Assembly (NCBI GenBank): GCA_013792135.1
Contig: VMSP01000122.1
Location: 1 to 64,000 of the forward strand
DNA from: Desulfocapsa sp.
Lineage (GTDB): Bacteria > Desulfobacterota > Desulfobulbia > Desulfobulbales > Desulfocapsaceae
Direction: 5' to 3'
Length of the DNA stretch: 64,000 nucleotides
Every line of letters starts with the position of its first letter. Within the stretch, counting starts at the first letter, position 1. The notes beneath the pieces are model-generated. The model ran no database searches, had not been told where the DNA came from, and was given only the letters and a program-made list of their open reading frames with translations. Shown here in pieces: positions 50,887 through 64,000 of this stretch. The translations under genes were made by a program, and so were the position numbers.

Positions 50887-51783
50887 ATGCGAGGAAATCC
50901 ACAAAATCAGGCCGGACAGATTTTTAGAGCCTTAAACCGGCTCGGTGAGTCAAGACACGAGGCAAAAAGGCAAGCAAGAGCGGACGGCCTTAGAGGCGTC
51001 CAAGAAATTGCGCAAGCTGTTGGTGTTTTTTCCTTTGCGACCATGCACCAGTACAAATCAATTTGCACCGAGTTTTTGACGTGGTGTCGTGATGCTCACG
51101 ACATGAAAGACGCGGCAATAATCCCGCCGGAAATGGCAGCCGAATGGCTATCGTTAAAAGTGGCCAGCGGATCTTCTAGAAAGACGGTTAGTACCTACGG
51201 CGCAGCTCTGAACAAGATGTCTGCCGGACTATCGACCATCTACAAAAGAGATTTTGAGTATGAGAAGACCCTGAGACCGGTAAGGCAAGAAATGCAAAAA
51301 TTCCAACCGGTCAAAGTAAAACCGAGAGCGTATACACGCCCAGAAGCGATGCTCCAGCACCTCACAGGCTCGCACAGGCTGGCGGCTGAACTGCAATTTT
51401 ATGGCGGAGCCAGGGTAAACGAGATCACAAGATTAAAGCCGGAGCATATGGGTAACGACGGTGTTATACACCTGACCAACACGAAAGGCGGACGCAGGCG
51501 TGACATAACCGTCCCGCCGGAGCTGCACAGGAGGCTGAGCGAGATCATCGCACGTGAGGGAGATTTTCGTTTTGTTTATCACCAGTACAGGAGCGCGCTC
51601 AAGAGCGCCGCCTTCGAGAGCGAGCAGGCATACACGGGCTCGCACGGACTGCGATGGTGTTTTGCACAAAAGATGTTTGCTGAGATCCAAGAGACTGGCG
51701 GCACGTATGAACACGCGTTGAAGATGGTTTCGGAGCAGCTCGGACACTCACGACCAGAAATAACATTGCATTATCTCCAATAA
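50887..51783 (+). CDS. Second tyrosine recombinase (right end)
   Basis: A 298-residue recombinase. An N-terminal core-binding domain (about 35-135, FSFATMHQYKSICTEFLTW) precedes the catalytic domain with FYGGARVNEITRL (Arg), SHGLRW (HxxR box), LGHSRPE and the nucleophile in LHYLQ. The protein ends two residues after the nucleophilic tyrosine, which is unusually close. AGGAG lies seven bases before the ATG. With the larger recombinase at the other end, it could serve excision, dimer resolution or a second step of transfer; which one is not decided here. Confidence 0.85.
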   Translation: MRGNPQNQAGQIFRALNRLGESRHEAKRQARADGLRGVQEIAQAVGVFSFATMHQYKSICTEFLTWCRDAHDMKDAAIIPPEMAAEWLSLKVASGSSRKTVSTYGAALNKMSAGLSTIYKRDFEYEKTLRPVRQEMQKFQPVKVKPRAYTRPEAMLQHLTGSHRLAAELQFYGGARVNEITRLKPEHMGNDGVIHLTNTKGGRRRDITVPPELHRRLSEIIAREGDFRFVYHQYRSALKSAAFESEQAYTGSHGLRWCFAQKMFAEIQETGGTYEHALKMVSEQLGHSRPEITLHYLQ

Positions 51784-52320: not shown

Positions 52321-52524
52321 ATGGAAGACAGATGGCTATCCGTAGATGAGATCGGAGCCTATCTCGGAGTTAAGCGAGATACGGTCTACAAATGGATCGG
52401 TGAAAAAGCCATGCCTGCCCACAAGATCGGTCGTCTTTGGAAGTTCAAGAAAGACGAGGTCGACGAGTGGGTGCGCAAAGGCGGAGCAGGTAAAATCAGT
52501 GGTGAGCATGACGGAAGCAAATAA
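52321..52524 (+). CDS. Excisionase-type helix-turn-helix protein
   Basis: A 67-residue protein that is almost wholly a MerR/Xis-type DNA-binding domain: WLSVDEIGAYLGVKRDTVYKWI, AHKIGRLWKFKKDEVDEWV. Such proteins open several BREX and restriction operons, where they probably act as regulators. The start at 52321 has GGAG 8-11 bases upstream. The gene overlaps brxA by 17 bases, so it belongs to the operon. Confidence 0.85.
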   Translation: MEDRWLSVDEIGAYLGVKRDTVYKWIGEKAMPAHKIGRLWKFKKDEVDEWVRKGGAGKISGEHDGSK

Positions 52525-53302
52525 CAATAATCTAACGCGCCTCGGATTCAGTTTTCAACGAGGCGGCGCCCATACTGCTCGCACGATGATGCTTGAGGAG
52601 CTTGGGGCGCTGCTGTCTTATGTCGACCGGCCCGAAGCTGAGAAAGCGGATTATTTGCGTGCGATTGATGAGGAAAATTGCCTGGGCAAACGTTCGGGGA
52701 AAACACGCCTGCTGACATACCGCCACCTGGTTGATCTTTACTCTCTCGATCCTTCAATTATTCTCTTTCGAGCGCTGCTCTTTTTTTGGCAACGAGATCC
52801 TGCCGGTCATCCGCTGTTGGCCCTGCTCTGTACTTATGCTCGCGATGCAATTTTCAGATCTACAGCGTCTTTTATTCTGAAATTTCCCGAAGGTTCAACC
52901 ATTACCAGGGAAGCTCTGGAAGAATTTATTGATGACAGAGAGCCTGGGCGATTCAGCAAGGCGACACTGAAATCGACGGCCCAAAATATCAACTCAACGT
53001 GGACCAAATCCGGCCACCTTATGGGCCGGATCCGTAAGATCAGGGCCCGTGCTCTACCGACTGCTGGCAGCGTTTCCTATGCCTTGCTTCTCGGGTACCT
53101 GACTGGTGTTCGCGGCGAATCTCTTTTCAAAACCGATTACGCGAAACTCCTCGACTGCTCATTCGAAAAGGCCATTGAGCTCACGGCAGAGGCCTCGCGC
53201 AAGGGATGGATCGTTTTCAAACGGGTCGGCGATGTCATTGAGGTACTCTTTCCGAACCTGATTAACGAACAAGAAATGGAGTGGCTTCGTGAGCAGAATT
53301 AA
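52508..53302 (+). CDS. brxA: BREX protein BrxA (DUF1819)
   Basis: A 264-residue protein of the DUF1819 family, part of type I BREX anti-phage systems. Recognisable parts are FQRGGAHTARTMMLEELGALL near the N-terminus, LVDLYSLDPSIILFRALLFFW and SYALLLGYLTGVRGESLF. BrxA has been reported to bind DNA. I start it at 52508, inside the end of the HTH gene, and leave out 54 codons of out-of-context frame further upstream. It overlaps brxB by 14 bases. Confidence 0.88.
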   Translation: MTEANNNNLTRLGFSFQRGGAHTARTMMLEELGALLSYVDRPEAEKADYLRAIDEENCLGKRSGKTRLLTYRHLVDLYSLDPSIILFRALLFFWQRDPAGHPLLALLCTYARDAIFRSTASFILKFPEGSTITREALEEFIDDREPGRFSKATLKSTAQNINSTWTKSGHLMGRIRKIRARALPTAGSVSYALLLGYLTGVRGESLFKTDYAKLLDCSFEKAIELTAEASRKGWIVFKRVGDVIEVLFPNLINEQEMEWLREQN

Positions 53303-53840
53303 ACGTCTGATTCAGTCCTATGGCAAATACATCGCGGTGCCGTGGCGAGATGATGCCGCAGCTCTCCAGCGCGTCATTTTTTGTGTTTACAATGAAACCG
53401 AAGAACGCTGGCTGCGAGCCAAGATTGATGAGTTCGAAATCGTTACCCGTCAGGCGGGCCATGACTGGGCCATCTTTGATCTGACTGACACCTTTGCGAT
53501 CTGGTTGGCTTCTCAGCGATACGCCAAGAGTTATTTTCAGAAGCCCCATCTGCTTTCCACTCTGCTGCCAAAATACCTGGCGTTCATTACGGAAGAGTTA
53601 GCAACCTTTCTCCGGGAAAACGAAATTGGTAAAGACTCAGTAGTGGCAATAACGGGCGTGGGTTCGCTCTTCGGATTTCAGAAGGTCAAAGAAGTCGTTG
53701 ATCAGTTTGCACCCTTGGTCAAAGGACGGCTCCTCATCTTTTTCCCGGGGAGTTACGAGAACAACAATTACAGATTGCTGGACGGTTATGACGGGTGGAA
53801 CTACCTTGCTGTGCCCATCACTGCCGACAAGGAATTTTGA
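53289..53840 (+). CDS. brxB: BREX protein BrxB (DUF1788)
   Basis: A 183-residue DUF1788 protein and a standard component of type I BREX. The motifs TGVGSLFGFQKVKEVVDQ and LLIFFPGSYENNNYRLLDGYDGWNYLAVPI are the family signature. The start codon is GTG, overlapping brxA. Its exact role is not known; genetically it is needed for defence in studied systems. brxC follows after 11 bases. Confidence 0.9.
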   Translation: MSRIKRLIQSYGKYIAVPWRDDAAALQRVIFCVYNETEERWLRAKIDEFEIVTRQAGHDWAIFDLTDTFAIWLASQRYAKSYFQKPHLLSTLLPKYLAFITEELATFLRENEIGKDSVVAITGVGSLFGFQKVKEVVDQFAPLVKGRLLIFFPGSYENNNYRLLDGYDGWNYLAVPITADKEF

Positions 53841-53851
53841 ACAAAGGGTTG

Positions 53852-56800
53852 ATGATGAACAATCGTGACATTTACCAAAAAGATCCAGCCACCCGCAAAC
53901 TGGTTAATGAAGGTGTGGCAAGCGTTAACGACGACAAAACCAGCCAGGCGCTGGCAGTCCTTCGCTATGAGCTGGATACCTTTGTCTGCGACGGCGAGTA
54001 TGAAAAAGGCATGGCCCACATCCTCGAGACCTATCTGAAGAACATCGACCAGGCCCAGCAGCCTGCGGTGTGGGTCAGCGGCTTTTATGGATCCGGTAAA
54101 TCACACCTGGTTAAGATGCTTCGTGCTCTCTGGGTGGATGCAGTTTTTGAGGATGGGGCAACGGCTCGTGGTATTGCCAATCTTCCCCAAAATATCTGTG
54201 ACCAAATGAAGGAGCTCAGTACACAGGCCAAGCGGCATGGCGGGCTATATGCCGCGTCAGGTACGTTAGGCGCTGGTGCCAGTGGCAGTGTCCGTTTGGC
54301 GCTGCTGCGGATCATCTTTAAATCTGCAGACCTGCCGGAACAGTATCCGGTTGCTCGTTTTGTTATGTGGCTTAAAGCTGAGGGTATCTATGACCAGATC
54401 CATAGTCTCGTTAAGCAGAATGGTTTTGACTGGGATGAGGAATTGGATAATTTCTATGTCGCCGAGGGGCTCCATGCAGCCTTGGTACAGACAAAGCCGA
54501 AACTCTTCAGCTCCCCGACTTCTTGTGTCGAGACGCTGAACAATCTCTATCCCTACGTTCACGATATCTCCAGCGATGACATGCTGAAAGCCATGCGCCA
54601 GGCATTGACCAGTGTGACTACTGGCGGAAAATTCCCGCTCACCCTGATCGTGCTCGATGAGGTGCAGCAGTACATCGGGGAAGACAGCCAGCGCTCTATT
54701 GACGTTCAGGAAGTCGTTGAAGCCTGCTGCAAGAATATCGGTGGCAAACTTCTTTTTATCGGTACCGGGCAGACTGCTGTTACCGGAACCAGCAACCTGA
54801 AAAAACTGGAAGGACGCTTCACCATCCGCGTGGAGCTTTCCGATGCCGATGTGGATGCGGTTATCCGCCAGGTCATCCTGGCCAAAAAGCCGGAGGCCAA
54901 AACACCCATCGAGCAGATGATGCAAACCAACCTGGGGGAAATCTCCCGTCATCTTGCAGGTACGACCATCGGTCACCGCCAGGACGACATCTCACACTTC
55001 ACGCAGGATTATCCAATCCTGCCGGTTCGCCGTCGGTTCTGGGAAAATACCCTGCGAGCGCTTGACCAGACCGGCACTGATAGCCAACTCCGCAACCAGC
55101 TTAGTATGGTGCATAAAGTCATTCAAACCAACCTGAATGAGCCGTTGGGCCATGTTGTACCGGCCGACTACATCTATTTCGTCTCCGCCGACAAACTGAT
55201 TCCTTATATTCTCCCTCGTGATGTCTATGACAAGACACTGACTTGGTACAAGGGAAATGACGATGAGAAGCTACTGGCAAGAGCCTGTGGTTTAATTTTT
55301 ATTATAAATAAGATTTCTAATGAGAATAAGGAAGTTGGCTTGATTGCAAATGTAGACACGCTTGCAGATTTATTAATTGAAGATATTACAGTGGGATCAA
55401 GTGAAATACGTCGAAGGCTCCCAGGCTTATTGAATCGATGTGAATTGCTCATGAAAGTAGGTGAGCAATATCGCATTCAAACTAAAGAAAGTAATGCCTG
55501 GAATGATGAATTTTCAAGCCAGCTATCTGCACTCTCAAACGAGGCCCATCGCATTGAGGCCGAGCGGGATGACCGTATCCGCAGGAAGTTCGGCGAGATG
55601 GTACGCAAACTCTCGCTAACTCAAGGCAACTCCAAGGTCGCTCGTGACATCTTCCCGGTGTTTGATTCTCAGTTGCCGAGTGATGCCGACCAGCGCATCT
55701 GCGTCTGGGTGCGTGATGGCTGGAGCAGCGACGAGAATTCAGTCAGGGCGGATGCTCGCCAGGCGGGCAATCAGTCCCCGACTGTATTCGTGTTTATCCC
55801 GAAACGATCCGCCGATGACCTGCGTCATCATCTGATTGACTACAAGGCTGCCAGTGCCACCCTCGATAAACGCGGCGTACCTAATACACCGGAAGGCACC
55901 GAAGCTCGGGCGGCCATGGAAACCACCAAGCAGATGGCTGAGGGCAAGATTCGCGAACTACTGGACGAAGCGTTTTCCGGTGCCCGTGCGTTCCAGGGCG
56001 GCGGCAATGAGATTCTGGGCAATGATCTCCAGGAAATGGTTTTGGAGGCCGCCGGCAATTCCCTGCAGCGTCTTTTTCCGCAGTTTCATGTAGCAGATCA
56101 TGTCGGTTGGTCCAAGGTGTATGAAAAGGCCCAGAAAGGGGCTCCCGATGCCTTGAAGGCCGTCGCTGATGATGGCGAACCGGTCAAGAATGGTGTGTGC
56201 AAAGCCATCCTCGGATTCATTGCCGGAGGCAAAAAAGGCGCGGACATCCGAACCCAGTTTGAGTCCTCACACTATGGCTGGTCCCGCGATGCTGTGGATG
56301 GCGGTTTGCAAGTACTGTTGGTTGCCGGGATTATTCGTGCCCTGGACGAACGCGGCCAACCCGTCGACCCCAAAGAGCTGGAACGCAAATCCATCGGCAA
56401 GGTGACCTTCAAGGTTGAATCCGCCACAGTCAGTACCGCCCAACGCATTCAGATTCGTAAACTGCTGCAGAAGGTTGGCCTGAGCGCCAAGCAAGGTGAA
56501 GAGCTGGCCTATGTGCCGCAGTTCCTGCACAAGATGATGGAACTGGCAGACCAGGCTGGTGGCGACGCACCCAAACCAGCTCGTCCCGAGACCTCTCCCT
56601 TAGAAGAAATCCGCCTGACCGCAGGCAATGAACAACTCCTGTCGCTGTACAACCGTCGCGATGATTTAAGCCAGTGTATCGATATCTGGACCGATCTGGG
56701 CGAGCGCATCACCAAACGCTTGCCGAACTGGATTATCCTGAAGCGCCTGATGGGTCATGCGGCAGCTCTTCAAGACGCCGAAATCATCCTGGCTCAGGTG

Positions 56801-57298
56801 AAAACCATTGAGCAGCAGCGCCAATTGTTGGAGGAACCGGATCTCGTGGCACCGCTTTCGGCCAACCTGACCCAACTGCTGCGTGACGAACTGAACCGTC
56901 TGGACAGTAAATATGAAGCGCGTCATAAGCAGGGCCTTGAACGTCTGTACGAGGATTCCAATTGGCAGCAGCTCGAGCCGGAACAGCGATACCAGCTCAT
57001 CTCCGCTCAGCTCCTACACGAATCTGCCCGGCCCAAGGTCGCGGTGCAGAGCACAGTCGATGTGCTCACTACCCTCGATAGCTGCTCATTACCCATGTTT
57101 GCAGACCGGGTTGCGGCCATGCCGGGCAGGTTTGATGGTGTGGCTCATGCTGCCGCCGAACTACTGGAACCGGAAGCCCAGTTTATTCAGGTGCCGCGCC
57201 GTATGCTCAAGACGGATATGGAGATTGATACCTGGATTGAGGATGTGAAACAACAACTCAAGACCGCCCTGCAACAAGGGCCGATCGTGATTCGATAA
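53852..57298 (+). CDS. brxC: BREX P-loop ATPase BrxC
   Basis: A 1148-residue P-loop ATPase, the largest core protein of type I BREX. Walker A is GFYGSGKSHL with the lysine at residue 83, and Walker B-like LTLIVLDEVQQY lies near residue 265. The start is the ATG at 53852; the frame extends upstream into brxB. Residues about 468-553 (55255-55510) are coded by a clearly AT-rich patch, unlike the rest. The protein is thought to form complexes with PglX and PglZ or nucleic acids in defence. It is followed by an AlbA_2 gene rather than by pglX. Confidence 0.93.
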   Translation: MMNNRDIYQKDPATRKLVNEGVASVNDDKTSQALAVLRYELDTFVCDGEYEKGMAHILETYLKNIDQAQQPAVWVSGFYGSGKSHLVKMLRALWVDAVFEDGATARGIANLPQNICDQMKELSTQAKRHGGLYAASGTLGAGASGSVRLALLRIIFKSADLPEQYPVARFVMWLKAEGIYDQIHSLVKQNGFDWDEELDNFYVAEGLHAALVQTKPKLFSSPTSCVETLNNLYPYVHDISSDDMLKAMRQALTSVTTGGKFPLTLIVLDEVQQYIGEDSQRSIDVQEVVEACCKNIGGKLLFIGTGQTAVTGTSNLKKLEGRFTIRVELSDADVDAVIRQVILAKKPEAKTPIEQMMQTNLGEISRHLAGTTIGHRQDDISHFTQDYPILPVRRRFWENTLRALDQTGTDSQLRNQLSMVHKVIQTNLNEPLGHVVPADYIYFVSADKLIPYILPRDVYDKTLTWYKGNDDEKLLARACGLIFIINKISNENKEVGLIANVDTLADLLIEDITVGSSEIRRRLPGLLNRCELLMKVGEQYRIQTKESNAWNDEFSSQLSALSNEAHRIEAERDDRIRRKFGEMVRKLSLTQGNSKVARDIFPVFDSQLPSDADQRICVWVRDGWSSDENSVRADARQAGNQSPTVFVFIPKRSADDLRHHLIDYKAASATLDKRGVPNTPEGTEARAAMETTKQMAEGKIRELLDEAFSGARAFQGGGNEILGNDLQEMVLEAAGNSLQRLFPQFHVADHVGWSKVYEKAQKGAPDALKAVADDGEPVKNGVCKAILGFIAGGKKGADIRTQFESSHYGWSRDAVDGGLQVLLVAGIIRALDERGQPVDPKELERKSIGKVTFKVESATVSTAQRIQIRKLLQKVGLSAKQGEELAYVPQFLHKMMELADQAGGDAPKPARPETSPLEEIRLTAGNEQLLSLYNRRDDLSQCIDIWTDLGERITKRLPNWIILKRLMGHAAALQDAEIILAQVKTIEQQRQLLEEPDLVAPLSANLTQLLRDELNRLDSKYEARHKQGLERLYEDSNWQQLEPEQRYQLISAQLLHESARPKVAVQSTVDVLTTLDSCSLPMFADRVAAMPGRFDGVAHAAAELLEPEAQFIQVPRRMLKTDMEIDTWIEDVKQQLKTALQQGPIVIR

Positions 57299-57304
57299 GG
57301 ACGT

Positions 57305-59023
57305 ATGGCCATGAGAAGTGCCGATCAGATTGCAGATTTACTGCTCGAACTTGATCATCGCATTGCCGATGAACTTGAAGATCAGGATCTGGATTTTAAG
57401 CAGTGGGATACCCAAAGCCGTGACAAATCGGTGCAAATGGTCGTGCGCATGGCTGTCTGCATGGCCAATGGTGGTGGCGGCACCGTGGTCTTTGGCGTGG
57501 CCGATCAGGTCAGGGGGCGTGAACAGGCCATCCTTGGTATGCCGATGGAAATCGATATCAATATCCTGAAAAAGGCGGTTTACGACCAAACCGATCCTAA
57601 AATTATGCCGGTCTTTGAAGAGCTGAATGTCCCTGAAGGGACTGGTCGTCTGCTGCTCATGCATATTCATCCCGGACTGCCGCCTTATACGGATACTTCC
57701 GGCCGAGGTACGGTCCGTATCGGTAAGGATTGCCAGCCTCTCACCGGTACCTTGCGTCGTAAGATTGGTGTGGAAACCGGTGAAACCGATATGACCGCAG
57801 AGCTTATTGCCCCGGTCAATACCGATCTTCTTTCGCCCTCGGCCATGGAAACCCTGCGCAACCTCGCCCAGGCAGAACATGCTCCCGATGACCTTCTGCG
57901 TCTGAATGATCTGGAACTCCTCGCTGCCCTGGGTGTTATCCGTGATCAGCGCTTTACTCGCGCGGCCATCCTGGTAGGTGGCAATGAAGATGCCCTGCGC
58001 AGGTATGTACCCGGCTTCAACTGGACCTTCTTGCAGATGAAGTCCGATGTCGATTACGGTATCCGTGAAGATCGGGTGAGTGCCGTGCCCCTCTCGGTCA
58101 AACGGGTCGAGGAGTTGCTCCTGCCGTTTAACCCGATTACAACCCTTGAGTATGGCCTGTTTCACTTCGAGTATCGGACTTGGCCCGCCATCGCCATCCG
58201 GGAAGCACTGATGAACGCCTTTTGTCATGTCGATCTGCGGATCGCTGGACCGGTCATGGTGAAACTGTATGCCGATCGGCTGGAGATCAGCAATAACGGC
58301 GGATTTATCGGTGGGATCACTCCAGAAAATATCCTTCATCATCAACCCGCTGCCCGTAACCCTTTGCTGGTCGAGGCACTGACCCGTCTGCGACTGGTCA
58401 ACCGCAGTAACCTTGGTGTGAGCCGGATGTTTTCTTCGCTGCTCGTAGAGGGCAAAGAGCCGCCCCTGATTCAGGAAATCGGAGAATCCGTAACACTGAC
58501 ATTTTTCCGCAGGGAACTCTCAAAGGCCTTTCGCCTTTTTGTTACGGCTGAGAATGAGGCTGGTCGTCTCCTTACGGTTGATGCTCTTCTCATTTTGCAA
58601 TATTTGCTCAAGTGTCCAGAAATTGAAACAGGATTTGCCGCCACCCTCTGTCAACGTTCCGAGGCGCAGATGCGCGAGCGGCTCTCCAGTATGGAAAAGA
58701 TGGGGTACCTCGAACATGGCGGCACCGGACGGGGTGCTTACTGGACACTGCGGCCCGAACTGTATCAGCGTTTGGCGGAAGCTGGTCATCCAGAGCGTGA
58801 TCGTCGCATTGATTGGGAGGCCGCAAAAACCCGCGTTCTGAGTATCCTCATGGAGCGGGAGCGTCGGGGAGAACCGGGGTTGAGCAATCAGGAAATTCGC
58901 CAGATTACTCATTTTGATCGGAATAAGGTCTATCGGTTAATGACTGAATTACGTCAGGAAAATACCAATATTCTTTCTCCTGGTAGAGGACAAAACGCGC
59001 GGTATGAATACCGGAAGCAATGA
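57305..59023 (+). CDS. AlbA_2/Schlafen-type ATP-binding protein in the BREX operon
   Basis: A 572-residue protein. The N-terminal part (about 25-150) is an AlbA_2 (divergent AAA_4/Schlafen) domain with DFKQWD and MANGGGGTVVFGVAD. A RecG-like/HATPase_c_4 region follows, with IREALMNAFCHVDL, LEISNNGGFIGGI and RSNLGVSRMF. A winged-helix C-terminal part (about 440-560, LSNQEIRQITHFDRNKVYRLM) suggests DNA or RNA binding. Such proteins occur as additional genes in BREX loci. It begins seven bases after brxC. It is followed by a leftover brxC end, so it arrived by recombination. Confidence 0.82.
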   Translation: MAMRSADQIADLLLELDHRIADELEDQDLDFKQWDTQSRDKSVQMVVRMAVCMANGGGGTVVFGVADQVRGREQAILGMPMEIDINILKKAVYDQTDPKIMPVFEELNVPEGTGRLLLMHIHPGLPPYTDTSGRGTVRIGKDCQPLTGTLRRKIGVETGETDMTAELIAPVNTDLLSPSAMETLRNLAQAEHAPDDLLRLNDLELLAALGVIRDQRFTRAAILVGGNEDALRRYVPGFNWTFLQMKSDVDYGIREDRVSAVPLSVKRVEELLLPFNPITTLEYGLFHFEYRTWPAIAIREALMNAFCHVDLRIAGPVMVKLYADRLEISNNGGFIGGITPENILHHQPAARNPLLVEALTRLRLVNRSNLGVSRMFSSLLVEGKEPPLIQEIGESVTLTFFRRELSKAFRLFVTAENEAGRLLTVDALLILQYLLKCPEIETGFAATLCQRSEAQMRERLSSMEKMGYLEHGGTGRGAYWTLRPELYQRLAEAGHPERDRRIDWEAAKTRVLSILMERERRGEPGLSNQEIRQITHFDRNKVYRLMTELRQENTNILSPGRGQNARYEYRKQ

Positions 59024-59030
59024 TGTGCTG

Positions 59031-59090
59031 AATGCTCTTTACACATTTCCCGAGCATTGATCGGGAGTTAATGCTCGTTTTAATGCTCGG
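59031..59090. repeat. AATGCTC repeat cluster
   Basis: AATGCTC occurs directly at 59031, 59070 and 59082 and inverted at 59052. CCGAGCATT (59050-59058) and AATGCTCGG (59082-59090) are perfect complements. It lies right after the AlbA_2 gene and could be an operator or a transcript end. Confidence 0.55.
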
Positions 59091-59120: not shown

Positions 59121-59228
59121 ATGCTGGATTTCCTGTTCAAATTGGGAATAGAGGTTAGTGCTTGGATCGAGGACATCGGCCAACAAGTCCAGGTTGCCCT
59201 GCAACAAGGGGCAGTGATCATTAAATAA
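59121..59228 (+). pseudogene. Leftover 3' end of a second brxC
   Basis: A 35-codon frame. Its end, SAWIEDIGQQVQVALQQGAV followed by IIK, closely matches the end of brxC (DTWIEDVKQQLKTALQQGPI followed by VIR), with the DNA around CCCTGCAACAAGGG also identical in both. The remnant lies just upstream of the AAA ATPase gene, where a second brxC would have ended. It shows that the segment with the AlbA_2 gene was inserted between two brxC ends, probably by recombination between homologous operons. It is unlikely to be translated usefully. Confidence 0.8.
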
Positions 59229-59242
59229 TTGGGAGGCTGGAC

Positions 59243-60280
59243 ATGCTTGAAAAAATTAAATTTGAAAAATTTACAGCCTTTGAGAAACTCGAAGTCAAGT
59301 TCTCCCCTGGGATAAATATTTTTGTCGGTGAAAATGGAACGGGCAAAACACATATTTTAAAGGCAGCCTATGCCGCCTGTGATATTGCCAAAAGTAAAGG
59401 GGGATTTGCTGAGAAGATCAATAACGTTTTCTATCCCTCCGGCAAACAGATAGGCCGTCTGGTCAAGCGATCATCAGTCAGTAGCAATGGAATACTGGAG
59501 GTCACACGAAAGATTGAAGACGACAAGAAGATTACATTGCGTCTCTCTCTTTCCAACCACACCACTAAACCCGACAAGGCAAAAATATCAGGTTCTCCAA
59601 AAGCTTGGACAGAAAACCCAATGGAAGCGGCCTATATCCCTGTCAAGGATATGATGGCCAATGCTCCAGGATTCCGCTCTCTTTATGAAGAGCGCGAAAT
59701 TCATTTCGAAGAGATTTATGTCGACATTATCCGCAAGGTCTTTCTGCCGCTACTCAAAGGTCCCACGGATAAACCAAGGAAACAGCTTTTGGAGAGTCTG
59801 CAGGAGGCTATGGATGGGAAGGTTGTCGCGAAAAATGAGGAGTTTTTTCTGCGCAGCAAACATGGCGAACTTGAGTTTACTCTACTTGCCGAAGGCTTCC
59901 GTAAGATGGGCTTGTTATGGATTTTGATCCAGAACGGAACCTTATTAAATGGATCGGTACTTTTTTGGGATGAACCTGAAACCAACCTCAATCCGCGTCT
60001 GATGAAAACCGTTGTCGGTATTTTGCTGGAACTCCAGCGCCAAGGTGTGCAGATTTTTCTCACCACCCATGATTATGTGATCCTAAAAGAGTTTGATCTC
60101 CAGGCAAAAAAGGACGACAAAATTCTTTTTCACAGCTTGTACCGGACGAAGGATACCGGCGAGATTGAAGTGGCATCGACTGATGACTATTTGAAACTCT
60201 CGCCGAACGCCATAGATGATACTTTTGGCAGCATTGTTGATAGAGAAATCGAAAAATCCATGGGGAGTCTTGGCAAATGA
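59243..60280 (+). CDS. AAA ATPase paired with a nuclease-like gene
   Basis: A 345-residue ATPase of the SMC/OLD-like AAA_21 type. Walker A is VGENGTGKTHIL (about residues 29-40). The ABC-like signature region is near FTLLAEGFRKMGLLWIL, and Walker B plus catalytic acids are SVLFWDEPETNLNP (about 235-248), followed by the switch segment LTTHDYVIL. GGGAGG precedes the ATG. The end overlaps the next gene by four bases. GC content is lower than in brxC and pglX, so it has a separate history. ATPases of this type with a partner gene act in anti-phage systems such as PARIS and Gabija. Confidence 0.85.
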   Translation: MLEKIKFEKFTAFEKLEVKFSPGINIFVGENGTGKTHILKAAYAACDIAKSKGGFAEKINNVFYPSGKQIGRLVKRSSVSSNGILEVTRKIEDDKKITLRLSLSNHTTKPDKAKISGSPKAWTENPMEAAYIPVKDMMANAPGFRSLYEEREIHFEEIYVDIIRKVFLPLLKGPTDKPRKQLLESLQEAMDGKVVAKNEEFFLRSKHGELEFTLLAEGFRKMGLLWILIQNGTLLNGSVLFWDEPETNLNPRLMKTVVGILLELQRQGVQIFLTTHDYVILKEFDLQAKKDDKILFHSLYRTKDTGEIEVASTDDYLKLSPNAIDDTFGSIVDREIEKSMGSLGK

Positions 60281-60804
60281 AGGTTGACACGGATGGATTT
60301 TCTTTTGATTTTACCGATGCGCTGGATGCGTTTGTTTTTGATGAAAAAGATAAGACGAAAACCACCTTCCACGGGCAACCGATGAAGGCAGTGGATATTG
60401 TTGCCGAATTTCCAGATGCCTATGTCTTTGTGGAAATGAAGGATTTTCACGATCCGGCATACTATGACACGAAGGATTTTAATACCGAAGAGGAGCTGAA
60501 GGCCAAAAGATCAGGGTTCAAATGGCTTAAAAATTACCTCAAATATAAATACCGTGACTCCTATCTCTTTCGACATGCTGAGCACAAGGTCGAGAAGCCG
60601 ATTCATTACATCTGCCTGTTGACGTTCGACAATGCTTTGAATACTGCCATGTGTAAGGCTCTGCAAAAGGAACTACCAGTAGGGCCAGCATCCAGACGAT
60701 GGAAACAGGAACTCGTCAAGAGTTGCGCAGTGGTCAATGTGGCCAGGTGGAATGAGAATTTTCCTAAATGGCCGGTGAGCTATACGCCAGCAGGAGCCGT
60801 CTGA
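60277..60804 (+). CDS. Putative PD-(D/E)xK-like nuclease partner of the AAA ATPase
   Basis: A 175-residue protein of no recognised family. It has AVDIVAEFPDAYVFVEMKDF, in which Asp40, Glu53 and Lys55 give a D-x12-ExK arrangement typical of PD-(D/E)xK nucleases, followed by a basic helix (LKAKRSGFKWLKNYLKYKYR). It overlaps the ATPase (ATGA) and pglX (one base), so the three are translated together. The motif assignment rests on sequence pattern alone; a non-nuclease partner is possible. Confidence 0.6.
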   Translation: MKVDTDGFSFDFTDALDAFVFDEKDKTKTTFHGQPMKAVDIVAEFPDAYVFVEMKDFHDPAYYDTKDFNTEEELKAKRSGFKWLKNYLKYKYRDSYLFRHAEHKVEKPIHYICLLTFDNALNTAMCKALQKELPVGPASRRWKQELVKSCAVVNVARWNENFPKWPVSYTPAGAV

Positions 60805-63800
60805 TGCAGCCGCTGGAAAAGACCTTACGCAATCGACTCGAACGAACGATCAAGGACGCCCGCGATATTGCCGAGGCCGCTGCCCGTGCTTCCATGGATC
60901 AACTGGGTGTAGGAGATTCCACCGCATTTAGTCACCTTTCGGAAGACGAGCGGGTGTTGCGGCGCAAGCTCAGGGTGCATGGTCGGCAGTTGGGGGATTC
61001 ACTTAACGGTGGCAAGGTTCAGGCCATGGATCGGCTTATCGAGGAAGTGGCCTACGAGCACTGGCACCGTATGCTCTTTGCCAGATTTCTGGCCGAGAAC
61101 AATCTGCTCATGTACGATGGCGTCGCGGTGACCCTGGAAGAGTGCGCCGAGCTGGCCGCTGATGATGGGTTGCGGAATGAATGGGAGCTGGCCGCCCGGC
61201 TTGCTACCGCCATGCTGCCGCAGATCTTCCGCCCCGATTCGGTGGTCTTTGCCCTCCATTTTCCACCCGAGCACCAGCAGAGGCTGGAACGTCTGCTCGC
61301 CGATCTGGTGCCGGAGGTCTTCACTGCCTCCGATTCCCTGGGCTGGGTCTACCAGTTCTGGCAGGCCAAGAAGAAGGATGAGGTCAATGCTTCCGAGGTC
61401 AAGATCGGCGCCCGGGAACTGCCCGCTGTCACCCAGCTCTTCACCGAGCCTTATATGGTTTCATTCCTCCTCGACAACTCCCTCGGGGCCTGGTGGGCGG
61501 CACGGCGTCTGAGCGCAACCGATCTGAAAAACGCCGTCAGCGAAGAGGAGCTGCGCAGCAAGGCCACCATACCCGGCATACCATTGGAATATCTGCGTTT
61601 TACCAAGATTCCCTCTCCCCTCGGAGTCTCGCAAGCTCACTTACCTGCGGGAGAGGGACAAGGTGAGGGGGAATCCTGGACCCCTGCCGCCGGGACCTTT
61701 GATGGCTGGCCGGAAAACTTGAGCGAACTCAAGACCCTGGACCCCTGTTGCGGGTCGGGCCATTTCCTGGTCGCCGCCTTGCTGATGCTGGTGGCCATGC
61801 GCATGGAATTGGAAGGGCTGTCGGCCCGCGAGGCGGTGGATGCCGTGTTGCGCGACAATATTCACGGCCTGGAGCTGGATCAACGCTGTGTGGAACTGGC
61901 CGCCTTTGCCCTGGCGCTGACCGCCTGGCGTTATCCGGAGAGCGGCGGTTATCGGCCACTGCCGGAGCTGCATCTGGCCTGCTCTGGCCTGTCGGTCAGT
62001 GTGGCCAAGGAAGAATGGAAGCAACTGGCCTTGGATAAACACAACCTGCGTATCGCCCTCGATTGGATGTACGATGCCTTTAGGGATGCCCCGGTACTGG
62101 GCAGCCTGCTTGATCCGAAAAGATCGCCAATGCCGATGGGCGTTTCTTGGGAAGAAGTCGGGCCACTCCTCGGCCAAGCCCTGCAACAGGAGCAAAGCGA
62201 CGAACAGCAGGAAGCCGCCGTGGTGGCGCAGGGATTAACCAAGGCCGCCACCCTGCTGGCCGGGAAATATCAGTGGGTTATTACCAATGTCCCCTATCTG
62301 TCGCGGGGCAAACAGGATGAGCGGCTGCGCGATTTCTGTGAAAAGCACTATCCGGCAGCCAAGAATGACCTGGCCACCGTGTTTCTCGATCGCTGCCTGG
62401 AGTTATGTGTGCAGGGCGGCACCTCCAGTATTGTCCTGCCGCAGAACTGGCTCTTTCTGACCAGCTACAAGAAATTCCGGGAAAAGCTGCTGAAGAACGA
62501 CACTTGGCACCTGATTGCCCGCTTGGGGCCGGGGGCCTTCGAGACCATCAGTGGCGAGGTGGTCAAGGCGATTCTTCTCACCTTGAGCCGGGGCAATGTT
62601 GCTGGCCAGCATGGCGGGCTCTTTACCGAAAGTGACGCTGCCAATCTGATTCGTGGCGTGGACGTCTCTGAACCTCGCACCGCCGCAGACAAGGCCGCCG
62701 GGCTTATCATCGCCGAGATCAAACAGGTGGGACAGGCGAGGCAGTTAGAGAATCCAGATGCGCGGGTGGCGTTGGAGGATGAGGTAGATTTACCCCTACT
62801 GAGTAAATTTGCAGATGGACTTGTCGGTCTTCAGACGAGTGATGACCCAATGTTTCTCTCAGCCCTCTGGGAACATGGCTCAATCGACAAGAATGTCTGG
62901 GAATACATGCAAGCAACACCTGACATTTATAGAGAATATGCAGGTCTGTCATGGCTGGTGAAATGGGAAAGAGGCGAAGGACTTTTATTGTCGCTTCCAA
63001 CTGCGTATCCAACCAAAGGTTTAAAAGCGCTTGGGAAGTCAGGCATCGCAATGCATAGAATGGGGCAACTATTCCCATATCATTATGGGAAAGAGCGCTT
63101 TCATCAAAATGTGGCCACAATTATTCCCAAAGACCTCGCCTACCTCCCCGCCATCTGGTGTTTCTGTTCCTCGCCGGAGTATAACGAGGCGGTGCGGCGA
63201 ATTGACCAAAAGCTGAATGTCACCAACGCCACTCTGGTCAAAGTCCCCTTTGACCTCGATTACTGGACCAAGGTCGCCGCCGAGAAATACCCCAATGGCC
63301 TACCCAAACCCTACTCCAATGATCCCACCCAGTGGATATTTCATGGTCATCCGGGCCAGAGTGATGAGCCCTTGCAGGTTGCCGTCGCCCGTCTCCTCGG
63401 CTACCGCTGGCCGGCAGAGCTGGACCCGGACATGGAACTCTCTATCGAAGCCCGTGCCTGGGTGCAGAAGTCGGAATCGTTGTTGCCCCTGGCCGATGAC
63501 GACGGCATCGTCTGCCTCCCGCCGGTGCGCGGTGAAATGTCCGCTGCCGACCGGCTGGAAAATCTACTGGCGGCGGCCTACGGCAGCGACTGGTCAGCCA
63601 CCAGGAAATCCGAACTGCTGGCCCAGGCCGACCATGGCGGCAAGACCATCGAAACCTGGCTGCGGGAAAAGTTCTTCAGCCAACACTGCAAACTCTTCCA
63701 CCACCGCCCCTTTATCTGGCACATCTGGGACGGCCTCCGTGACGGTTTCGCGGCGCTTATCAACTACCACAAACTCGACCACAAACTCCTGGAGACCCTG

Positions 63801-64000
63801 ATCTACACCTACCTGGGCGACTGGATCAGCCGCCAGAAACAGGACATCGCCGGTGGCGTGGACGGCGCCCAGGAAAAGCTCGCCGCCGCCGAAGGCCTCA
63901 AAAAAAATCTGGAAATGATCCTCGAAGGCGAGGCCCCCTACGACATCTTCGTGCGCTGGAAGCCCCTCGACAAACAGCCCATCGGCTGGAACCCGGACTT
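60804..64000 (+). CDS. pglX: BREX adenine-specific methyltransferase PglX (incomplete)
   Basis: The N6-adenine methyltransferase that marks host DNA in type I BREX. The first 1065 codons are in the window. SAM-binding motif I is LDPCCGSGHFL with Asp313, and the catalytic motif reads NVPY at residue 495 in place of the usual NPPY; that form is, as I recall, seen in other PglX proteins. The segment coded at 61611-61672 contains a short repeat that adds about 21 residues. The part coded at about 62750-63125 (residues 650-774) is AT-rich and lies in the expected target-recognition region. The ATG overlaps the stop of the preceding gene by one base. Confidence 0.93.
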   Translation, partial: MQPLEKTLRNRLERTIKDARDIAEAAARASMDQLGVGDSTAFSHLSEDERVLRRKLRVHGRQLGDSLNGGKVQAMDRLIEEVAYEHWHRMLFARFLAENNLLMYDGVAVTLEECAELAADDGLRNEWELAARLATAMLPQIFRPDSVVFALHFPPEHQQRLERLLADLVPEVFTASDSLGWVYQFWQAKKKDEVNASEVKIGARELPAVTQLFTEPYMVSFLLDNSLGAWWAARRLSATDLKNAVSEEELRSKATIPGIPLEYLRFTKIPSPLGVSQAHLPAGEGQGEGESWTPAAGTFDGWPENLSELKTLDPCCGSGHFLVAALLMLVAMRMELEGLSAREAVDAVLRDNIHGLELDQRCVELAAFALALTAWRYPESGGYRPLPELHLACSGLSVSVAKEEWKQLALDKHNLRIALDWMYDAFRDAPVLGSLLDPKRSPMPMGVSWEEVGPLLGQALQQEQSDEQQEAAVVAQGLTKAATLLAGKYQWVITNVPYLSRGKQDERLRDFCEKHYPAAKNDLATVFLDRCLELCVQGGTSSIVLPQNWLFLTSYKKFREKLLKNDTWHLIARLGPGAFETISGEVVKAILLTLSRGNVAGQHGGLFTESDAANLIRGVDVSEPRTAADKAAGLIIAEIKQVGQARQLENPDARVALEDEVDLPLLSKFADGLVGLQTSDDPMFLSALWEHGSIDKNVWEYMQATPDIYREYAGLSWLVKWERGEGLLLSLPTAYPTKGLKALGKSGIAMHRMGQLFPYHYGKERFHQNVATIIPKDLAYLPAIWCFCSSPEYNEAVRRIDQKLNVTNATLVKVPFDLDYWTKVAAEKYPNGLPKPYSNDPTQWIFHGHPGQSDEPLQVAVARLLGYRWPAELDPDMELSIEARAWVQKSESLLPLADDDGIVCLPPVRGEMSAADRLENLLAAAYGSDWSATRKSELLAQADHGGKTIETWLREKFFSQHCKLFHHRPFIWHIWDGLRDGFAALINYHKLDHKLLETLIYTYLGDWISRQKQDIAGGVDGAQEKLAAAEGLKKNLEMILEGEAPYDIFVRWKPLDKQPIGWNPD
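61611..61672 (+). repeat. REP-like palindrome inserted in frame in pglX
   Basis: The sequence starts CCCTCTCCCCTCGG and ends GGGAGAGGGACAAGGTGAGG, with CCCTCTCCC (61611-61619) complementary to GGGAGAGGG (61649-61657). It resembles a common intergenic repeat of proteobacteria. It codes in frame for about 21 residues rich in Gly and Glu, between the helical N-terminal part and the conserved AAGTFDGWPENLSELKTLDP segment. Confidence 0.75.

Follow-up and report, generated by a model that had tools for sequence, protein, structure and literature searches.

The candidate defence family HEC-02 was reportedly named in a preprint by Payne et al. in 2024, with models in PADLOC-DB 2023. HEC stands for "Hma embedded candidates" (PMC10855318, PMC12988326), and antiviral activity has been reported for several HECs, HEC-06 included (PMC12988326); no such statement for HEC-02 was found in the passages of PMC12988326 consulted. 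The literature searched, which did not extend to the naming preprint, yielded no mechanism for HEC-02 and no paper pairing that name with PADLOC. According to PMC12839542, BREX loci contain OLD-ABC ATPases paired with PD-(D/E)XK, HNH or PIN nucleases as backup effectors, the three nuclease alternatives taken together being counted in 594 taxa. The name HEC-02 does not occur in the running text of that paper, and its set of OLD-ABC plus PD-(D/E)XK modules likely includes HEC-02. A comparable two-gene system is WonAB of the Vibrio cholerae WASA-1 prophage, made of an OLD-type ABC ATPase and a PD-(D/E)xK nuclease that are both needed: protection disappears in ATPase variants and in the nuclease variant K71A, and the system aborts infection once replication of phage DNA is under way (PMC12137116). 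PARIS, which also occurs in BREX loci, is triggered by the anti-restriction protein Ocr (PMC12839542), and BrxU is described in PMC8565348 as occupying the slot between brxC and pglX and protecting alone.

The window, i.e., the whole 64,000-nucleotide stretch of Desulfocapsa sp. DNA analysed here, holds an ATPase gene and a small partner gene between a Schlafen/AlbA_2 gene and pglX. They are part of a complete type I BREX operon that runs past the end of the window, in the order brxA-brxB-brxC-[Schlafen/AlbA_2 gene]-[pair]-pglX-[one ORF]-pglZ-brxL. Its features are as follows.

52346..53302, plus strand: brxA (PADLOC BrxA, E 9.7e-110)
53289..53840, plus strand: brxB (PADLOC BrxB, E 8.4e-82)
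53795..57298, plus strand: brxC (PADLOC BrxC, E 0; NCBIfam NF033441, E 1.9e-279, above cut-off)
57305..59023, plus strand: Schlafen/AlbA_2 + HATPase_c_4 accessory gene (Pfam PF04326, E 5.7e-18; PF13749, E 4.5e-19)
59160..59229, plus strand: second, diverged copy of the brxC 3' end (about 69 bp), 13 nt 5' of HEC-02A and within a small ORF (59121-59229)
59243..60280, plus strand: HEC-02A, 345-aa ABC-type ATPase (PADLOC PDLC04213, Pfam AAA_21)
59327-59350 and 59966-59980: HEC-02A motifs, Walker A (residues 29-36) and Walker B (residues 242-246), followed by H276
60277..60804, plus strand: HEC-02B, 175-aa putative PD-(D/E)XK nuclease (PADLOC PDLC04229)
60394-60396, 60433-60435 and 60439-60441: HEC-02B motif, D40, E53 and K55
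60804..64000, plus strand: pglX (brxX), running beyond the window to contig position 64271 (PADLOC PglX, E 0)
contig 65803-68136, beyond the window: pglZ (PADLOC PglZ, E 0)
contig 68133-70181, beyond the window: brxL (PADLOC BrxL, E 1.6e-301)

The listed GTG start of brxC may be too early, with homology starting at about codon 21. A phage-type integrase gene (50887-51783) lies just 5' of the operon. The ORF between pglX and pglZ (contig 64268-65806) encodes 512 aa, is in part 26% identical to the AlbA_2 gene product, and marks a further site for cargo within this operon.

The original prediction had the coordinates, strand and coupling of the two genes right: HEC-02A and HEC-02B are both on the plus strand and joined by an ATGA overlap at 60277-60280, and the HEC-02B stop codon TGA (60802-60804) has one base in common with the pglX ATG at 60804. 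It had also attributed to the pair a base composition of its own, and the GC content is indeed 0.438 in HEC-02A and 0.453 in HEC-02B against 0.532 in brxC, 0.534 in the AlbA_2 gene and 0.582 in pglX. Two relatives show this dip as well, at 0.461/0.479 and, for the ATPase only, at 0.466, compared with 0.55-0.59. The 175-aa protein is single-copy in its own genome (186 contigs). In the nearest named relative, Desulfobulbus sp. Tol-SR (locus L041, identical with L017 of genome G055), the ATPase is 96% and the partner 85% identical, and dN/dS values of about 0.03 and about 0.05, respectively, make both genes look to be held by purifying selection.

By sequence, the pair is a member of the catalogued candidate family HEC-02. 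HEC-02A matches PADLOC PDLC04213 with an E value of 9.9e-131 (residues 1-341 on profile positions 1-335 of 337) and HEC-02B matches PDLC04229 with an E value of 1.3e-63 (residues 1-168 on positions 1-166 of 171), while all 43 scanned relatives of the partner match HEC-02B models of PADLOC-DB. The pair had been taken for an undescribed module whose partner belonged to no known family; this reading was rejected because PADLOC has HEC-02 models for both genes, and OLD-ABC plus PD-(D/E)XK pairs in BREX (PMC12839542) as well as the similarly designed WonAB (PMC12137116) have been published. Like other HEC-02 members, the window pair matches the models over nearly full length and is co-oriented and embedded in a defence operon, but it lies in a type I BREX slot beside a second cassette, whereas the family name derives from Hma loci. 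It shares with the OLD-ABC plus PD-(D/E)XK REase modules a place inside BREX (PMC12839542) and with BrxU the brxC-pglX slot, although BrxU is a single GmrSD-type protein. WonAB is prophage-borne; HEC-02 resembles it in design, with an ABC ATPase in a two-gene operon and a nuclease motif in the partner, whose nuclease fold is putative. In two further HEC-02 entries of PADLOC-DB, PDLC04146 and PDLC04145, the A and B names seem to be swapped, with a 344-position "HEC-02B" model that fits the ATPase and a 170-position "HEC-02A" model that fits the partner.

HEC-02A is strongly predicted to be an ABC head by fold. It matches Pfam AAA_21 (E 2.2e-24) and carries a Walker A motif, GENGTGKT, a Walker B motif, FWDEPE, and H276; K35, D243, E244 and H276 are identical in 36/36 aligned ATPase relatives, and so are the signature-region residues A216, G218, R220 and K221. 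The structure model (pLDDT 86.6) has PtuA of Septu (8eea) as its best Foldseek match (E 9.6e-17), and VIA-align places an SMC head (5xei; Z 20.6, rmsd 3.6, 279 aligned) and PtuA (8eea; Z 20.0, rmsd 4.1, 301 aligned) in a tie. An identity as AAA+ ATPase was rejected given this predicted ABC/SMC head fold. The proposal that the ATPase is of the PARIS type stood in part: AriA models do match HEC-02A, but at 3e-25, far more weakly than the HEC-02A model itself (about 1e-130), and the nearest listed folds are PtuA and Rad50/SMC heads. AriA and LmuB are absent among the 50 structural matches listed for the model, which rules out nothing.

HEC-02B carries D40-x12-E53-x-K55, and a PD-(D/E)XK active site would be expected to show such a D-x12-E-x-K arrangement. 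In an alignment of 50 proteins (45 HEC-02B plus 5 distant sisters), D22, E53, K55 and K91 are invariant and D40 is found in 49 (the remaining one has N), so that the nuclease-like motif noticed originally is real and not due to chance. E44, D94 and Y111 are identical in all 45 HEC-02B, with counts of 0, 0 and 1, respectively, in the five sisters. Searches of Pfam, NCBIfam and PHROGs gave nothing better than E 0.09 for HEC-02B, and a PDB sequence search gave no relative. In the structure model, built from 43 sequences (pLDDT 82.3, pTM 0.77), E53 and K55 lie on a strand (49-55) adjoining another (41-44) that comes after D40. Fold prediction, which had been proposed as a check on the partner, gave a weak PD-(D/E)XK-like resemblance: the top 11 Foldseek rows are all nucleases of the Can2/Cdn1 type, the best with an E value of 0.011 (Can2, probability 0.91) and none at 0.001 or better, and the best VIA-align match, 1y88, reaches Z 6.4 (rmsd 3.4, 106 aligned), below the tool's safe level of Z 8. 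By our own assignment, 46 of the 50 VIA rows listed are presumably restriction-endonuclease-like proteins; the remaining four are two xylosyltransferase entries, YqgP and ACC1, and unrelated rows reach Z 5.3. With all VIA Z scores under 8, the fold alone is no proof, and the match by itself is weak; nuclease is nevertheless the best call for HEC-02B when the motif, where it lies in the model, and the kinds of protein among the fold matches are considered together.

The partner also sets the pair apart from the two systems that its ATPase most recalls. Septu, whose PtuA is the best Foldseek match of HEC-02A, has an HNH nuclease as PtuB, whereas HEC-02B has the D/E-x-K motif and no HNH match in Pfam or PADLOC, and membership of Septu was rejected on that account. 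PARIS, to which the AriA matches point, has the Toprim protein AriB; membership was likewise rejected, as HEC-02B has no Toprim/DUF4435 match in Pfam at E values up to 1 and PADLOC gives HEC-02 models alone, in line with the original statement that the partner is not a Toprim/DUF4435 protein.

Taken with these comparisons, the pair is probably a HEC-02 system in which a PtuA/OLD-like ABC ATPase serves as sensor and switch for a small PD-(D/E)XK-type nuclease effector, the two forming one unit that sits as cargo between brxC and pglX of BREX, with a gating like that of Septu, PARIS or WonAB, a probably abortive outcome and a place as second layer behind BREX. On the analogy of those three systems, HEC-02A would dimerize on ATP and hold or position HEC-02B. 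A phage signal would then alter the nucleotide state of HEC-02A, upon which HEC-02B would be released or activated, and active HEC-02B would cut nucleic acid and stop the infection, probably at the cell's cost, thereby backing up a BREX system that the phage has evaded. The family assignment, conservation, context and partner exchange are observations, whereas we infer the complex, its trigger and substrate, the abortive outcome and the backing up of BREX. Alternatively, HEC-02 may restrict incoming DNA directly, with survival of the cell and no abortion; PD-(D/E)XK nucleases are commonly DNases and SMC/Rad50-type heads handle DNA, which would suit such an activity. We nonetheless consider direct restriction rather unlikely, since the pair is without a methylase or specificity partner and its design analogue WonAB is abortive, with phage DNA replication proceeding (PMC12137116).

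The distribution of HEC-02 bears on how far such a sensor-nuclease unit would depend on BREX. HEC-02B was found in 2 of 72,556 plasmid records, both times in the brxC-pglX slot, in none of 50,697 phage records, and at one locus among the viral contigs. A BREX locus with HEC-02 (L028) lies on a contig classed as viral, IMGVR_UViG_3300025021_000154. Among related genomes, the HEC-02B PADLOC model matches 12 of 193, own genome included, five of these being weak sister matches, and the phylum sample gave 11 of 395 genomes, again with the own genome included. The genome_contigs set contributed 41 HEC-02B loci from a scan built on four close rows, and is therefore biased towards window-like HEC-02B. 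With four duplicates and five sister loci left out, 56 loci were tabulated. The context is BREX in 44 of them: brxC and/or pglX adjoin the pair in 42, its BREX neighbours are pglZ and brxL in L019, and L086 has the pair in a type III-like BREX with PglXI 5' and BrxH 3'. The remaining 12 loci have no BREX gene beside the pair (L042, L060, L061, L064, L067, L068, L069, L078, L084, L085, L087 and L090), which answers the search outside BREX that had been proposed and bears out the original view of a self-contained two-gene ATPase-nuclease module of defence type inserted in BREX. Within this group, six loci combine a long ATPase ORF with a full partner (L042, L061, L064, L069, L085 and L090), the partner ORF is shortened in L067 and L068, and L060, L078 and L087 are truncated at, or close to, the end of their contigs. 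Flanks examined in these loci are mostly ordinary, e.g., leuS and a CoA ligase gene (L084) or permease-like genes (L061); a flanking gene in L087 has no Pfam match.

In the phylum sample, BrxC was over cut-off in 24 of the 395 genomes, apparently the same 395 as for HEC-02B, and coincided with HEC-02B in 6 of its 11 genomes (Fisher p 1e-5, computed post hoc on non-independent genomes with the own genome included). No BrxC match was found in four of these 11 genomes (G250, G270, G424 and G563) or in G577, the genome of L042, and G576, the genome of L061, has a weak one. Since 12 of 56 loci have no BREX gene next to the pair and 4 of 11 genomes are without a BrxC match, guarding BREX is not the sole role of HEC-02. 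The reading that HEC-02 amounts to a subunit of BREX, working only with BrxC and PglX, for example as an extra nuclease arm, draws on this enrichment in BREX genomes and on the strong preference for one slot order, brxC-A-B-pglX, with a 4-nt brxC/A overlap in 20 loci. We regard it as distinctly unlikely in view of the six complete-looking pairs without adjacent BREX, the five genomes without a BrxC match, the type III-like BREX copy in L086, and sister pairs beside other genes. Given how often HEC-02 is embedded in BREX, a backup role is plausible, and the copies without BREX mean that HEC-02 need not depend on it.

These sister pairs, each an ABC ATPase with a D/E-x-K protein, adjoin a DNA polymerase IV-like gene, which we take to be dinB, in L021, L022 and L025, and lie beside HmaC in L024 (12853-17347); those of L023, L024 and L025 match HEC-02 models. 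Other loci hold decaying HEC-02 copies, namely, L081 (9977-10177), with only a 66-aa C-terminal remnant of HEC-02B between brxC and pglX, L088 (9566-9973), with HEC-02B matched in two frames, and L084 (3481-4517), with the ATPase ORF in two pieces. In Pseudomonas mandelii 6A1 (L055:7138-12448), HEC-02A and HEC-02B lie between pglX pieces covering residues 1-606 and 591-1176, so that either the methylase gene is interrupted by the pair or pglX consists of two ORFs with cargo between them. Another BREX locus (L079:10194-17406) has pglX in two pieces (residues 1-582 and about 602-1176) 3.5 kb apart, and its HEC-02B is reduced to the C-terminal part.

The HEC-02 genes form a unit, A and B sharing 4 nt in 47 of the 54 loci holding both. 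The two components have exchanged partners in evolution, judging from FastTree and treekit trees built under a quick, simple model for the 35 loci that hold both proteins. In the ATPase tree, the window groups with L061, L066, L086 and L090 (support 1.0), and in the partner tree, it groups with the L016 group (0.977). The ATPase grouping was rejected when forced on the partner data (p-AU 1.9e-78), as was the partner grouping when forced on the ATPase data (p-AU 1.3e-69), both for groups chosen after seeing the trees; this disagreement indicates that ATPase and nuclease swapped partners. Synonymous divergence from Tol-SR is lower for the ATPase (pS 0.54) than for brxC (pS 0.74, near saturation), which points to an exchange of the module at a later time. 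A non-phage function, e.g., a Rad50-like ATPase and a nuclease that maintain the genome, would agree with an ATPase model equally close to SMC/Rad50 heads and PtuA and with the dinB-like neighbours of L021, L022 and L025, but is very unlikely, because patchy spread (11/395 genomes), BREX/HmaC embedding and partner exchange fit defence better.

The brxC-pglX slot of the window holds two cassettes, the AlbA_2 gene and HEC-02, with a copy of the brxC tail in between. The same 69 bases of the Tol-SR brxC 3' end align at 57230-57298 and from 59160, and the copy shares 47 identities with the window's own brxC end over 69-70 positions. Compared as protein with BrxC, it has a local score of 88, against a maximum of 48 in 1000 shuffles. 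Each cassette is also found directly behind brxC elsewhere: HEC-02A starts 15 and 12 nt after brxC in Tol-SR and G437, and in G096, a genome without an HEC-02B match, a gene 69% identical to the window AlbA_2 gene starts within 10 nt of the brxC end and pglX comes next. A brxC tail is likewise duplicated, over 125 bp and at 75% identity, in L076 (8607-8726; protein score 140, maximum 37 in 100 shuffles). A tail-like stretch in L053 (1374-1436) scores 79 against a best of 31-37 in loci without a tail and runs into an ATGA overlap with HEC-02A; L053 is a 3.5-kb contig without brxC, and this copy was therefore judged by its shortness and position. In both loci, the copy comes after a Schlafen-like gene, a call that is below the Pfam cut-off in L076 and rests on HATPase_c_4 only in L053. 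Altogether, a Schlafen-type gene lies 5' of HEC-02A in seven loci, of which three have a tail copy (the window, L053 and L076) and four do not (L046, L048, L052 and L057).

Of the 38 HEC-02 loci whose brxC end could be read, just the window and L076 have a tail copy; for L055 and L072, the scan stopped at the pglX match, and the 300 bases before HEC-02A were covered separately. No tail copy was found in 32 sampled BREX loci, single-cassette loci among them, of which 31 were new, one (L137) is the HEC-02 locus L049, and four (L099, L101, L106 and L116) were partly readable, their contigs ending within about 3 kb of brxC. The tail copy as a general mark of slot cargo was rejected on this count. 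We read the window copy as a scar of cassette stacking, and recombination between brxC ends during integration would leave such a pattern; decay of an older duplication is the alternative. Extending the stacking reading, we put forward as a tentative possibility that BREX operons are docking platforms, where HEC-02 and Schlafen/AlbA_2 cassettes would integrate behind brxC by recombination at its 3' end, with a duplicated tail left behind wherever a second one joins, and would be stacked and swapped as units, with HEC-02 mixing its sensor and nuclease partners. A Chlorobiaceae BREX locus (L072:8402-8659) has an additional copy of the pglX 5' end (residues 1-77) located 5' of HEC-02A, which may be a mirror image, at the pglX end, of the stacking scar. 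Between the AlbA_2 gene and the tail copy, the window also holds a terminator-like stem-loop (59051-59077; 11 pairs, T-rich tail), and the number of such stem-loops, 2, is not above that in shuffles (mean 2.0).

The brxC-pglX slot itself is widely used, with a gap of more than 500 bp in 18 of the 30 sampled BREX loci having a pglX match (L137, the same locus as L049, is one of the 30). A literature search on the brxC tail copy gave no title on it among the matches listed, a weak sign of novelty. The newer part of the finding is the traces of stacking, not the pair itself. The autonomy of HEC-02 is directly testable, now that residues (K35 and E244 in HEC-02A, E53 and K55 in HEC-02B) and compact copies with no BREX next to them have been named, and the brxC-tail copies offer a physical trace of how accessory defences may join BREX.
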